Below, piece by piece: positions 3,918-8,910 of a stretch of 10,426 nt of DNA. Both the position numbers and the translations under genes were made by a program. Numbering within the stretch: the stretch's first letter is position 1; every line of letters begins with the position of its first letter. The stretch is taken from NCBI GenBank assembly GCA_017616575.1, contig JAFZXW010000157.1, forward strand, positions 1 to 10,426. The letters are read 5' to 3'. Source of the stretch: Candidatus Methanomethylophilaceae archaeon. Its GTDB lineage: Archaea; Thermoplasmatota; Thermoplasmata; Methanomassiliicoccales; Methanomethylophilaceae. A model generated the notes under the pieces. That model was not told the origin of the DNA and searched no databases. It worked only from the letters and a program-made list of their open reading frames with translations.

Positions 3918-4376
3918 ATGTTCGGCCGGCCAAGTCGCTCAGCGGTGTTGAGGAACGTCGAGCGGGCGCTGAAAGACTCCCAGCTCAAATACGACGTCAA
4001 GGACGATGGGAACATATTCCTCGGCGCCATGGGGGACGACCTCCCGATAAACATGGCCATCATCGCTGACGACGGCAACCTCACCCTGAACATCTACTGC
4101 TTCCTGATGTTCGAGATCCCGGACTCGTTCAAGGATAAGATGATCGGCGAGCTGAACACCGTCAACAACACGATCAACAATGGCAGCTTCTTCATGACCG
4201 ACGATGAGTCCAGGATATGCTTCAAGATCGTCCAGAGCTATTACGACCATGTCCCTTCACCGAAGATGATCCAGAACCTGGTCATGATCGCTTTCAAGAC
4301 CGTCGATGTGAACGACGGCAAGCTCAAGAACCTGATCCCGGCCGGAGTCCTGAGGAAGGACGTCATGTACAACTGA
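3918..4376 (+). CDS. YbjN-domain-like small protein
   Basis: A 152-residue soluble protein with no signal peptide or membrane segment. The pattern is an N-terminal helix (about 8-22), beta strands of the type 'gnIFLGAMGDDLPINMAII' and 'NLTLNIYCFLMFEIP' (about 33-70), a helix with an Asn-rich turn (about 76-92), then a strand pair ending in 'RICFKIVQSY' and a C-terminal helix. This order resembles the YbjN / type III secretion chaperone-like fold, whose members are thought to bind other proteins; the cellular role of archaeal members is not known. ATG 3918 is the only plausible start: the frame is open back to a TGA at 3864, but no ATG, GTG or TTG precedes 3918. No Shine-Dalgarno is visible. 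It lies 38 bases after the citrate synthase stop on the same strand. Family assignment is moderate; function is unknown. Confidence 0.7.
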   Translation: MFGRPSRSAVLRNVERALKDSQLKYDVKDDGNIFLGAMGDDLPINMAIIADDGNLTLNIYCFLMFEIPDSFKDKMIGELNTVNNTINNGSFFMTDDESRICFKIVQSYYDHVPSPKMIQNLVMIAFKTVDVNDGKLKNLIPAGVLRKDVMYN

Positions 4377-4755
4377 CCGCTGTTCGTGACGCCCTTCGGT
4401 GCCGCGGCCTAAAATGAACGTGTGTCCAGATTTCTTGCGGACCCCGTGATTTAGCAGGGGCGGTCACATGCAATCCGTATAAGATAAGCATTAAATACGG
4501 CGGAAATCTCTCTTCTATCTGCGATTCACGGAACACCGTATTGGAGTCCGGCTTCTTCTTAGAGGTCATCCAACTCCCTGTGGCGGTTGTTATCATGCAG
4601 CCGCAACAGAAAGGGAGTCAGAGGGATGACCAGGTTCAATCCAATCATCGTGTCCGCGTTGTCTGTCCGTTCGATGCCGTCGATGCAGTCAGGGTCCTCT
4701 CCGTTTTCCAAGTCTGCCGAAGCTGCAGTGCTCTCGCATTTCGGAGTGTGGATTC
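4377..4755. other. 379-base intergenic region and leader
   Basis: No convincing gene is seen here. The left part (4377-4475) has no T-run terminator and no tRNA-like fold that I could find. A TATA box lies at 4490-4497. From the predicted transcription start near 4520 to the ATG at 4756 there would be a leader of about 235 bases, long for an archaeon. Short open frames exist (for example ATG 4626 to TGA 4790, 54 codons, with GGGAG at 4613-4617), but their composition is not protein-like and they overlap the next gene. The only translation signal that clearly belongs to a gene is GGAGTG at 4743-4748, seven bases before ATG 4756. Confidence 0.55.
4490..4497 (+). promoter_or_regulatory. TATA box upstream of the propeller-GTPase unit
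   Basis: ATTAAATA sits in the only A/T-rich part of the intergenic region. It is oriented toward the propeller gene 259 bases downstream. A second A/T-rich stretch (GTATAAGATAAG) lies just upstream at 4477-4488. Predicted start of transcription is near 4515-4525. Confidence 0.5.
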
Positions 4756-7053
4756 ATGGAAAAGGAATCGATAACAGAGCTGATGCTTGACCCTGATTCG
4801 TTCTATGGCGCCGTTTCCGAGGCGCTGGACAGATTCAAGGAGCCGGACCTGCAGAACGTCGAGTTTCTTGCTGTAGTCTCTTCGGTGGATTTCGCAATGA
4901 AGCACTACAGGACGCTCGCCGATGGGAAGCCGCTGGCAGAGAGGCTGTCGGAGCTATGCAGGGCGCACGGGTTCATCTCCCAGCCGGAGGTCTCCGGCCA
5001 CCCTCAGTTCTCCGCCCATGATTTGGTCATTTCTCCCAAAGGGGACCTTTGCGCCTGCATGGATTACAGGACGGTGACCATACTGGTCGCCGGCGAGATG
5101 AGACCGATCGTGTCTATAAGGATTGATCTGCTGGACGAGCATTTTCTGGACGAGTGGCGCTATCGGCTCGGCGGCTATCTGTCGTTCCCGGATTCGGAGA
5201 CCCTGAATATCGGCCGCATGTCCTGGTCCATCAGGAACTGGAAGAAAGTCCCTTTGGCGTCCGATAATTTCGACAGGGGTCGGTTAGAGAACGTGCCCCG
5301 CGGGTGGGAGGCCGTCCTCCTGTCCGCCAACGGCGACGTCCAGCTCCAGACCAGGGAGCGCGGAGGCATGTTCGGGCGTCGCGAGTACGGAATGCTGTCC
5401 CATTCTGACATGTCCTTCAAGAAGTACGAATGGCCTGAGATAACGGCCGAGGACGTCCGTGCCGCCGCCGTGTCCAACGGCAGGGCAGTGATTTTGGCGG
5501 GGGGCAGGCTGACGTCGTACAGGATCTCGAAGGACGTCCTCAGGAGGAGCCGCACGGCGGTCGTCGAGGACAGGGTCTCCGACGGCATAGTGGTCTCGTC
5601 GAACGACGGGAGGTACATGGTGGTCTCGAACGGGCTGAAGGACGACGACGGATCGGAGAGGGCGCTTCTCAGGATGATGGACGCCTCCACGGGGTCCATG
5701 GTCCGCTACAACCTCAAAGGGACGGAAGGACAGCTGTACAGCAGCCCGAGCATGCGTATGAACGAACGCCTCAGATGCGTCACCTACGGAGGCGGGAGGT
5801 ACGTGGCGCTGGAGGACGACAGCGGCAGGATAGAGGCATGGAACGTCAGCACCGGAGCGAACTATCCGAAGAACGAGGAGAGATGCCTGAAAGGGCGTAT
5901 ACTTGCTCACGGGGAGGATTCTGTCACGGTGGCGCACTGTCCGGACGGGATCGTATGCACCGGCATCCGGGACTACGACCTGCTTCTCCGCCCGTCCGGG
6001 GAGGAGAGGGCCGTCAACGTCCCCTTCGCCCCCGTCTAGGGATATCTCGCCGAGCCGCACGACGCCGACGGCGGGATCGCAATAGACTACAGGCGCGGAG
6101 AGGAGAGGTTCGGGAAAGGGTATTTCACCGGAGCCTCCAGAGAGTCCTACGGCAGCCCCAGGGACGCGACGTGCGTGCCTTCCGGATGCGAGAGGTTCGT
6201 CCCTCTTGAAGAACGCGGGGCCTTCGTCATTCCCACAGGCGATTCCACGATAGTTCTGGACAGGTTCGACTTTCCTCATCTTTATCCTGAGTCTATGGTG
6301 CCTCCCCCCATGGTGTCCAGAACCCCGCTGGAGGACGGCGCTAAGCTGCTCAGGATAAAGAAGAGGAAGGTCGGCTGGGCAAGGACCAAAGTCATCCTGG
6401 CCACGCTGCACCTAGGCATGGCCGAGGATGCGGCCGAGACCGTCATCGAAGTGCCTTTCACCTACGAGGAGGAGCCTCCAGACGCCCATCCAGACCTGGG
6501 GTCCGCCCTGAAGGAGATCGAGATATTCCGTTCCGGGGACAGATACCTGATGTGGGGGACGTGCAGGTTCTCGGGCGAGGGCCAGGGGGCCGTCTGCGGC
6601 AAGAGGATGTTCGTGCTCGAGGACGGCCGTTTCAAGGTCACTGACAGAGAGGTGGTCTCGTTCATGTCCTGCGGAGGCTCCGCAGCAAAGGTCGTCTACC
6701 GCAAGGGGCTCTTCGTACTGACGGTTGAAGGGACTGACGGCGTCATGGAGAGGCCTTTAGGCCAGTGTGATAGCATCCCGTTCGTGAGGAGCTTCGACGG
6801 ATCTTCCTGTTTGGTGGACGGTATAGAGTATAAAATCGGAGAAGGCGGCATCGTTCCAGCCGGTCGGAGGTACGGCAGCCGCCGGGAGATGTCCAGCAGG
6901 AGCTTCTTGTACAGCGGTGACGAGGAGCACCGCCGCCTGTTCGCCGACGTATCCACCGGGGAATACATGGTGCACAAGGCCGGAAGCCTGTTCATAGCCA
7001 CGGAGAGCTCTAGGACGACAATCGACGAATCCGAAGAGAGTGATACACAGTGA
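4756..7053 (+). CDS. Beta-propeller-like protein with in-frame UAG (probable Pyl428)
   Basis: Read through the TAG at 6037-6039, this is a 765-residue protein. I do not recognise a named family. Residues 1-80 are helical and acidic. From about 86 on there are repeated blade-like units of the WD40/PQQ style, for example 'HDLVISPKGDLCACMDYRTV' (88-107), 'IVVSSNDGRYMVVSNG' (about 278-293) and 'RYVALEDDSGRIEAWNVSTG' (about 347-366). Blade-like strands continue after the UAG to about residue 740. There is no signal peptide or membrane helix. The start is set by GGAGTG at 4743-4748, seven bases before the ATG. After the UAG the same frame stays open for 337 codons and its TGA overlaps the GTG start of the next gene by four bases, which argues that the downstream half is translated with the upstream half. 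Likely role (inference): a cytoplasmic protein-interaction platform for the membrane GTPase. A stop-split pseudogene or sequencing error is the main alternative. Confidence 0.74.
6037..6039 (+). other. In-frame UAG, candidate pyrrolysine codon
   Basis: Codon 428 of the propeller-like gene, in the context Val-UAG-Gly. The frame is open on both sides (427 codons before, 337 after) with similar composition. A conventional restart would have to use GTG 6175, 135 bases downstream, leaving in-frame coding-like sequence 6040-6174 unexplained. Reading as pyrrolysine is inferred from the likely lineage; pylT and pylSBCD are not in this window. Confidence 0.65.
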
Positions 7054-8459
7054 ATAGTCTGAACTCGGCGGTCTGGAATCTTGCTTTCTTCATTCCGCTC
7101 GTCCCAGCCTGCCTGGCTGCATACGCCTTCTTCGGGTTCCTGCTGTCTTTTTTCCCATTAAAGGCCATCACCTTCTTATTTGACGATATAGAGCCGTTTA
7201 AGGCCGTCCCCGCAATAATCGGCTGCTTCGGGTTTCTCGTTGTTTGTTTCACCCCTTTGGGTAGAGACTTTGGCATGGTGCAAAACATCCCCGAGTCGAA
7301 GACATACCCTGTGCCGTTCATTGGGTTCAGCGAGATGTGGGAGAGCCTGGCGTCTGAGTTCAAAAGCCTCGCATATTATCTGCTCTTGTACAGTTTCTTG
7401 TTATTCCCCATAACCTTCCCCATCCTCGTAGTGACCGTCGTTGCAACGGTGCTGCTGTTCCCATATTTAGCGCTCGTCGACGCGGCCTACTACGTCGTCA
7501 TGGCCGTGGCGAAGGCCGTGGACAAGCGGCAGTACAGAACCAACACGAAGCGCCTCGTCTGTCCCGAGTGCGGAAGGGCCTCCGGCCGCCCGTTCTACGA
7601 TGTCGGCACCAGCGCCATCGAGGGGTTGCGTCCGAGCAAGAACGGCATATTCTCGGTGGAGATGGAGACGGCGTCATTTCCTTGCTTCGGGTCCAAGGGG
7701 GGCAGGAAGGGGCTCGTCCAGTCGTGTCCTCTGTGCTCTTCTGTGCTTGAGACGGCGGAAGGCAAGCCTTTCGTCTTGTCTGTCGCCGGGGCGCCGTCCT
7801 CCGGGAAGACCAGCTTCGTCCACTCCGTCACGGGAAGGCTCGTATCCACCTCCGGGAACGGCAAGGCCGACAAGGCAGGCCTATACCACGCATGGGAGGG
7901 GGCCGAACTCGCGGCGTACCGCGCCGGAACATGCGACCCCACGCCTGCATCTTTTCAGAAGCCGCATGTCGTGAAGCTGGAATCCGGCAGGCTGACCACA
8001 TGCAGGCTTCTGTACATGTACGACATCGGGGGCGCGTTCTTCACCGGGCAGATTGAGACCGACATGCAGCCCCAGTACGCGTTCAGCGACGCCTTGGCGT
8101 TTGTCCTGGACCCTACGTGCGACAGGCCCGCGGACGCCGCCCTGGACGCCTACAGGGTGTTCGTTGGAAGGTACCGCCAGTTCAACAGGATGGACGCGTC
8201 TATGAGGATCGACGTCCCGCTGGCCATAGTTGTGACGCACGCGGACGTCCCCGGGCCGCTGAGCTGGCTGTCCGGATCGGAGCTCAGGGACAGGATGGCA
8301 GACATAGGCTACTTCAACCTGGTGAACTCCGCGGAGAGGGACTTCCGCAGGGTGTCGTTCTTCTCCTGCGACGCGAGAAAGGAGTGCAAGGAGACAGGGG
8401 ATGCCGTGAAGAGGCTTTGCGAGGACGCCGGCGAGGATATCGGACAATTCTTCAGCTGA
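7050..8459 (+). CDS. Membrane-anchored zinc-ribbon GTPase (double-GTPase 2-like)
   Basis: A 469-residue protein in three parts. Residues 1-155 are strongly hydrophobic, with about four membrane helices (near 8-38, 50-70, and two between 108 and 152). A zinc-ribbon-like module follows with C171-x2-C174 and C226-x2-C229. The C-terminal half is a P-loop GTPase: Walker A G247-APSS-GKTS (Lys253, Thr254), a G3-like D325-IGG, a hydrophobic strand with 'FVLDPT', and a G4-like T396-HAD399 in place of NKxD. Motif wording and architecture resemble the 'double-GTPase 2' (DO-GTPase2) group that Aravind and colleagues linked to conflict and signalling systems; that assignment is from memory and moderate. 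The soluble domain should face the cytoplasm. The GTG start at 7050 overlaps the upstream TGA by four bases, with GAGAG at 7036-7040 as ribosome binding site, so it is translationally coupled to the propeller gene. It ends in TGA 67 bases before mptD. Confidence 0.84.
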   Translation: MNSLNSAVWNLAFFIPLVPACLAAYAFFGFLLSFFPLKAITFLFDDIEPFKAVPAIIGCFGFLVVCFTPLGRDFGMVQNIPESKTYPVPFIGFSEMWESLASEFKSLAYYLLLYSFLLFPITFPILVVTVVATVLLFPYLALVDAAYYVVMAVAKAVDKRQYRTNTKRLVCPECGRASGRPFYDVGTSAIEGLRPSKNGIFSVEMETASFPCFGSKGGRKGLVQSCPLCSSVLETAEGKPFVLSVAGAPSSGKTSFVHSVTGRLVSTSGNGKADKAGLYHAWEGAELAAYRAGTCDPTPASFQKPHVVKLESGRLTTCRLLYMYDIGGAFFTGQIETDMQPQYAFSDALAFVLDPTCDRPADAALDAYRVFVGRYRQFNRMDASMRIDVPLAIVVTHADVPGPLSWLSGSELRDRMADIGYFNLVNSAERDFRRVSFFSCDARKECKETGDAVKRLCEDAGEDIGQFFS

Positions 8460-8495
8460 ACAATGCCGAGGCTGATTCGATCATCGGCGGGTAGT

Positions 8496-8503
8496 GTTAA
8501 ATC
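8496..8503 (+). promoter_or_regulatory. TATA box of mptD (leaderless transcript)
   Basis: GTTAAATC starts 31 bases before the mptD ATG at 8527. With archaeal spacing of about 25 bases, transcription would begin at or next to the ATG. No Shine-Dalgarno sequence is present in the C/T-rich stretch just before the ATG. Both facts fit a leaderless mRNA. Confidence 0.5.
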
Positions 8504-8526
8504 TTCCACGGGCCATTCTCCCTCTC

Positions 8527-8910
8527 ATGATAGACAGGGAGCAGGTTGCGGCATCCAGGTTCAACTGCAGCGAGCGCGAGAGGGCGATTTTCGAGGCCGG
8601 AGTGAAGATGGCCACCATATACCACCAGTTCGTCGGCACTCCCGTGAACGCGAACACCGTCTAGGGGCTCGAGAGGGCCATATCCGAAGCCATATGCGTT
8701 CAGCCTTACACCTATTCCGCCACGGTCCGCATCGACATGTCTGTATTCCCGGAGGACAAGGACAAATACTCCTACATCTCCTTGAGCGGGGACATGATCG
8801 ACGCGAGGGTAAGGATAAGGATCGGCTCCTGCGAGGTGACCGCGGAGATGCGCTATGACGAGATCCTGAAATACCCTCTGATGTACGTCGCATCGGTCAG
8901 AGAGCTCTGA
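8527..8910 (+). CDS. mptD: Archaeal dihydroneopterin aldolase MptD, in-frame UAG
   Basis: Cleaves 7,8-dihydroneopterin to 6-hydroxymethyl-7,8-dihydropterin and glycolaldehyde in pterin (tetrahydromethanopterin or folate-type) synthesis. Reading TAG 8662-8664 as an amino acid gives 127 residues, the usual family size. Family signatures lie on both sides of the UAG: CSERERAIFEAG (14-25) and HQFVGTPV (33-40) before it; VQPY (58-61), YSYISLSGDMIDARV (81-95) and YPLMY (116-120) after it. The Glu23-to-Gln59 spacing of 36 equals that of the catalytic Glu25 and Gln61 that I recall for M. jannaschii MJ1585, so the UAG fills one normal residue position (46). Under the standard code only a 45-residue N-terminal piece would be made, and the downstream piece would have to start at ATG 8737 without Gln59. 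No Shine-Dalgarno; probably leaderless. It ends in TGA. A recent nonsense mutation is the main alternative. Confidence 0.85.
8662..8664 (+). other. In-frame UAG, candidate pyrrolysine codon 46 of mptD
   Basis: The UAG sits between the conserved HQFVGTPV segment and the helix carrying VQPY, in the context Val-UAG-Gly, without any length change relative to the family as I remember it. Conserved sequence in the same frame on both sides shows this is one gene. Pyrrolysine insertion is the expected reading in Methanomassiliicoccales. Confidence 0.78.

Follow-up and report, generated by a model that had tools for sequence, protein, structure and literature searches.

In the methylamine methyltransferases MtmB, MtbB and MttB, an in-frame UAG codon occupies a conserved site and encodes a catalytic pyrrolysine (Pyl), and mtmB is the classical pyrrolysine gene. 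Kivenson et al. (Science 2025) reportedly described an archaeal code in which all TAG codons are sense, with TAG serving generally for Pyl in Methanomassiliicoccales and further groups, and many non-methyltransferase Pyl proteins are said to belong to it. In Methanosarcina acetivorans, Pyl occurs in the tRNA-His guanylyltransferase (Thg1), for which the title of the cited report invokes neutral evolution (Heinemann 2009, PMC2933860). For Candidatus Methanomethylophilus alvus, 16 non-methyltransferase Pyl proteins were predicted, some of them highly conserved, and it was proposed that such proteins may render the Pyl cassette essential (Borrel 2014, PMC4153887). Here, a stretch of 10,426 nucleotides (the window; contig JAFZXW010000157.1 of assembly GCA_017616575.1, a Candidatus Methanomethylophilaceae archaeon) was analyzed, in which the gene mptD is interrupted by an in-frame TAG. 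Comparison with related loci indicates that mptD is intact and that its UAG is very probably read as pyrrolysine, so that the product would be an enzyme of 127 residues.

The mptD gene is located at positions 8527 to 8910 of the forward strand. It is read in one frame from an ATG start through 45 codons, the TAG at 8662-8664 (codon 46) and 81 further codons to a TGA at 8908-8910, 127 codons including the UAG. With the TAG taken as a residue, residues 15-121 matched the family PF04038 (E 4.9e-39; 133.6 bits at a cut-off of 25). This single match runs across the TAG and covers profile positions 1-107 of 108, nearly the full length. A search of the NCBIfam models with the product gave no match. 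By family assignment, the gene is mptD, encoding a dihydroneopterin aldolase. In a 34-row alignment, the window MptD has all 30 invariant columns. Glu23 and Gln59, which we take to be the catalytic residues, were both invariant in the 34 rows, and the alignments contain no indels near the UAG. The preliminary description of the locus had reported a 127-residue frame with MptD signatures on either side of the UAG, and this observation was confirmed. The length of the open frame beyond the TAG is no evidence in itself, because 81 open codons after a stop are expected with a chance of ~10% in random sequence of the same composition; homology and conservation carry the case.

The same codon is TAG in the nearest relative, RGIG6046 (G001), a sheep-omasum metagenome-assembled genome (MAG) of a Candidatus Methanomethylophilaceae archaeon with 91% completeness. 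The window's genome (G000) is a draft MAG of 247 contigs with 61% completeness. The two MptD proteins are 84% identical. Among 147 genomes of the order, 133 have mptD, with one match each, and a TAG inside the gene was found only in these two; a second mptD copy, intact or otherwise, was found neither in the window's genome nor in RGIG6046 at the completeness given. Codon 46 was compared in 30 aligned loci, drawn from 93 genomes with an mptD match. All of the 28 other loci have a sense codon at this site (13 Glu, 4 Asp, 3 Ser, 2 Pro, 2 Gln, 2 Lys, 1 Ala and 1 Thr). Comparison of the 127 codon pairs between the window's genome and RGIG6046 yielded 75 identical, 33 synonymous and 19 nonsynonymous pairs. 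The ratio of nonsynonymous to synonymous rates (dN/dS, Nei-Gojobori) was 0.14 before the TAG (dS 0.83) and 0.12 after it (dS 0.69). Such low values on either side are unlike the expectation for a dead gene and, together with the common TAG codon, make a pseudogene, a sequencing error or a split gene unlikely. The earlier view that the UAG acts as one amino acid was thus borne out by purifying selection on both flanks, by the UAG in a second species and by the pyl genes of the window's genome described below. Among the public protein predictions listed, the best full-length relative of MptD was only 74% identical, as expected if gene callers using the standard code cut the members of this clade.

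The role of residue 46 was assessed from a structural model and from its variability. Solved structures of sequence relatives of the window MptD are 2IEC, 2I52 and 2OGF. An AlphaFold2 model, calculated from the 34-row alignment with Lys placed at residue 46, had a mean predicted local distance difference test score (pLDDT) of 92.4 and matched the three structures with template modeling (TM) scores of 0.78-0.84 (query) and E values of 1e-11 to 4e-10. In the model, a helix is predicted at residues 45-57 with residue 46 in its second position, and the earlier placement of this position in a loop before a helix had to be given up. Among 120 relatives listed, of 652 found, ten residues were present at position 46 (Glu 48, Ala 21, Gly 14, Ser 11, Asp 9, Pro 5, Lys 5, Gln 4, Thr 2, Arg 1), and several positions between residues 42 and 68 were as variable in the same relatives. 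With ten residues accepted at this site and many UAGs inside other genes of the lineage, pyrrolysine 46 is probably tolerated rather than functional or catalytic, which fits the earlier proposal. Retention of the UAG in two species at a dS of ~0.7 would suit a residue under selection, be it for catalysis, for a substrate channel or for regulation by Pyl supply. However, such a role is improbable in view of the ten alternative residues among the listed relatives and of the many unrelated genes with UAG.

The search for the pyrrolysine machinery was positive in part. The window's genome contains pylB, pylC and pylD on one contig (C80), each above its curated cut-off, with pylB cut by the contig end; pylS and pylT are considered below. 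In RGIG6046, pylS was found above the cut-off, adjoining pylB, and a tRNA-Pyl with the anticodon CTA lies ~200 bases from pylS. Because of this arrangement, pylS of the window's genome may sit just past the contig end. In a survey of 31 genomes of the genus, PylS and PylB each exceeded the cut-off in 27, and at least one copy of mtmB with a single in-frame TAG was present in all 31, the window's genome included. These genes bear on the residue that is inserted. The codon is visible in the DNA and the residue is not, so a different suppressor tRNA, or readthrough by a near-cognate tRNA, might insert a canonical amino acid at the UAG. The presence of pylBCD and a UAG-containing mtmB in the window's genome, and of pylTS in RGIG6046, makes this quite unlikely.

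Inactivation of mptD by a nonsense mutation has the TAG itself in its favor. However, the same TAG in a second species, the constraint downstream of it (dN/dS 0.12 at dS 0.69), the 30 conserved invariant columns and the failure to find another mptD in either genome (61% and 91% complete) leave a pseudogene with very little probability. Equally little can be granted to two polypeptides, a 45-residue piece and a downstream piece made by re-initiation. Internal start codons exist: codon 71 of the window mptD is ATG, and codon 58 of its RGIG6046 counterpart is GTG. However, codon 71 is no start codon in RGIG6046, and GTG 58 is missing in the window's genome. Moreover, ATG, GTG and TTG are all absent between codon 46 and Gln59 in the window mptD, and the TAG would fall at the start of one predicted helix, 45-57. 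A sequencing or assembly error, conceivable in a draft MAG of 247 contigs, can practically be dismissed, given the same TAG in a second MAG with 84% protein identity.

To place mptD in its lineage, the frequency of internal TAG was determined in sequence sampled from five genomes (214, 487, 128, 208 and 300 kb). Coding open reading frames (ORFs) were picked with a six-frame codon model, and in-frame coding continuing beyond the stop was scored. The rate for TGA/TAA served as a yardstick for in-frame neighboring genes and model errors. Coding continued past 8/17 TAG ends compared with 10/122 TGA/TAA ends in the window's genome, 14/32 compared with 24/309 in RGIG6046, 2/2 compared with 3/85 in G005, 9/14 compared with 6/147 in G017, and 2/4 compared with 17/245 in G013. 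The total was 35/69 for TAG versus 60/908 for TGA/TAA (p 3e-20). Without the five contigs chosen because a TAG or pyl gene was already known on them, 30/61 versus 56/868 remained (p 2e-17); both p values take ORFs as independent, and the genomes share genes. For the window's genome alone, without the chosen contigs, the counts were 4/12 and 9/107. One candidate, L239:1526-5536, was rejected as a single read-through gene, being likely two in-frame neighbors, a Sel1 protein followed by a Tsr3-like protein; the count of 35/69 therefore holds some neighbor pairs. No coding was detected beyond the other 34 of the 69 TAG ends, in part owing to short tails. Nine TAG-ended proteins of this kind were scanned, and in two (L238 and L091) the family profile was nearly complete before the TAG. 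Some TAGs could therefore lie at natural gene ends, and frequent sense use of UAG, not an all-sense UAG code, is claimed. In a BtuC-like permease of the window's genome (L120:6518-7480), the TAG lies ~35 profile positions short of the family end and is followed by 21 codons to a TGA. It was dropped as an example of a natural gene end, since ~35 positions of the family profiles are missing before the TAG; this TAG could be an internal UAG or the end of a shorter protein.

Seventeen read-through proteins from the window's genome and RGIG6046 were scanned against family models. A family match across the TAG was found in 7 and demonstrated in none of the other 10. Except in mptD, codon 1 is the first codon of the open frame. 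Besides MptD (codon 46, PF04038), the matches span the TAG in the translation initiation factor aIF2-alpha of the window's genome (TAG at L115:3094-3096, codon 98; NF003064), the exonuclease VII large subunit (L108, codon 328), the archaeal UMP kinase of RGIG6046 (L086, codon 120; TIGR02076), LarC2 of RGIG6046 (L097, codon 418) and an ABC exporter (L237, codon 464). In a B12-binding corrinoid protein of the window's genome (L259:2419-3102, codon 180), encoded on the same contig as mtmB, the TAG lies inside an incomplete domain match (2-75/121). At the aIF2-alpha site, Lys is present in 7/7 aligned relatives. The TAG was seen only in the window's genome: 28 genus genomes were matched, and TAG is absent from all 25 of the others in which the match reaches this site; RGIG6046 gave no aIF2-alpha match. 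The UMP kinase site is Thr, Glu or Val in 5 aligned relatives, and its TAG was found in RGIG6046 only among the genus matches, the window's genome having no full-length match. No match to the RGIG6046 LarC was found in the window's genome. TAGs seen in a single genome, such as that of aIF2-alpha, could be due to sequencing error. An internal TAG in RNA polymerase A'' (L236, RGIG6046) was rejected because the family match begins after the TAG. A very long repeat protein of RGIG6046 (L095:12432-19998), with LRR_5 and Flg_new repeats, contains two in-frame TAGs.

The stop-codon loop of the release factor aRF1 reads NIRS instead of NIKS in RGIG6046 (L145) and G005 (L157), and NIKS in 24 other genus members covering the region. 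Among 120 of 3574 aRF1 sequences listed, 106 had NIKS, 2 NIRS and 1 NIKT; 11 were missed by the loose pattern, and at least 8 of these had NIKS. The idea that NIRS weakens UAG termination was dropped. Lys63Arg preserves termination efficiency and was the sole change in the cited experiments to do so (PMC5681627), and G017, with NIKS, has internal TAG no less often.

For mptD, we propose that tRNA-Pyl (CUA) would read UAG 46 as pyrrolysine without a special hairpin and in competition with the release factor (PMC9499178). The UAG would have arisen once, in the common ancestor of the window's genome and RGIG6046, at a permissive site, and may have been kept because the lineage decodes UAG efficiently. 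Where UAG is constantly read as Pyl, mutation to TAG would amount to a missense change, as proposed for Ca. M. alvus (PMC4153887), and MptD and several other housekeeping proteins may now depend on the pyl system. Several observations weigh against pyrrolysine at this codon. Neither pylS nor aRF1 was found in the window's genome, which is 61% complete and has pylB at a contig end. A DNA search with the RGIG6046 tRNA-Pyl gave no match there either, a weak negative at this completeness. No hairpin resembling the pyrrolysine insertion sequence (PYLIS) was found 3' of the mptD UAG (fold z +1.54 in the window and +0.77 in RGIG6046), although such a hairpin is described as not obligatory for UAG decoding (PMC9499178). 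The TAGs of the two mptD genes probably have one origin, not two. With some TAGs possibly at natural gene ends, a truncated MptD product is possible too.

A second gene in the window, at 4756-7053 of the forward strand, has 765 codons, no Pfam match and an in-frame TAG at 6037-6039 (codon 428), which is absent from the preliminary description. Its relatives in RGIG6046 (80% identity) and G026 (78%) both have TAG at the same site, and the G026 relative has an additional TGA near its end; three shorter matches, two in G026 and one in G009, stop short of codon 428. No hairpin was found after this TAG (fold z -1.11). Between the window's genome and RGIG6046, dN/dS was 0.20 upstream of the TAG and 0.44 downstream of it, so the constraint beyond the TAG is weaker than in mptD. 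In RGIG6046, the counterpart of this gene is on a different contig from mptD. A YbjN-like gene lies ~10-50 bases upstream of mptD in 5/10 loci of relatives, with no YbjN match in the other 5. In the window, the YbjN-like gene (3918-4376) is parted from mptD by 4.1 kb (4377-8526) containing the genes 4756-7053 and 7050-8459, which look like an inserted pair. Positions 1-2416 contain the last 804 codons of a large open frame, which by eye only resembles a repeat-rich surface protein.

Standard annotation cuts UAG-containing genes such as mptD. Should UAG be decoded in essential genes, the cell would be unable to turn off the pyl cassette when methylamines are scarce; pyrrolysine would then be a housekeeping amino acid and no longer a catabolic speciality, and rumen methanogens might be vulnerable through the pyl pathway. 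We see about an even chance that organisms of this rumen clade obligately use 22 amino acids, with pyl genes essential regardless of methylamines and UAG mainly a sense codon. In this reading, Pyl would have spread by drift into a sufficient number of essential proteins, among them MptD, UMP kinase and aIF2-alpha (Lys in the seven aligned relatives).

Compared with the known systems, mptD shares the in-frame UAG and the accompanying pyl genes with the methylamine methyltransferases, and mtmB of the window's genome has one TAG; however, the UAG site is variable in MptD and conserved in the methyltransferases. In contrast to the reported code with all TAG as sense, the present sample keeps TAG at apparent natural gene ends. 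Thg1 of M. acetivorans is the best experimental parallel to MptD; its Pyl is described for that species only (PMC2933860), whereas the MptD UAG is found in two species and in a predicted pterin aldolase. The Pyl proteins of Ca. M. alvus come from the same order and were predicted by the same in-frame-TAG reasoning (PMC4153887). Table 7 of that study names no MptD, aIF2-alpha or UMP kinase, with several entries given as 'hypothetical protein' (PMC4153887). TAG makes up 1.6% of stops in Ca. M. alvus (PMC4153887), compared with 12.2% and 9.4% of the codon-model ORF ends in the window's genome and RGIG6046, respectively, where internal TAGs are counted. The preliminary description had called a housekeeping pterin enzyme an unusual site for pyrrolysine. 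This was its weak point, as UAG lies inside many genes here and 16 such proteins were predicted in Ca. M. alvus (PMC4153887). MptD is very probably a further case of the already known non-methyltransferase Pyl proteins, and the proposed wider housekeeping dependence is the more interesting part.
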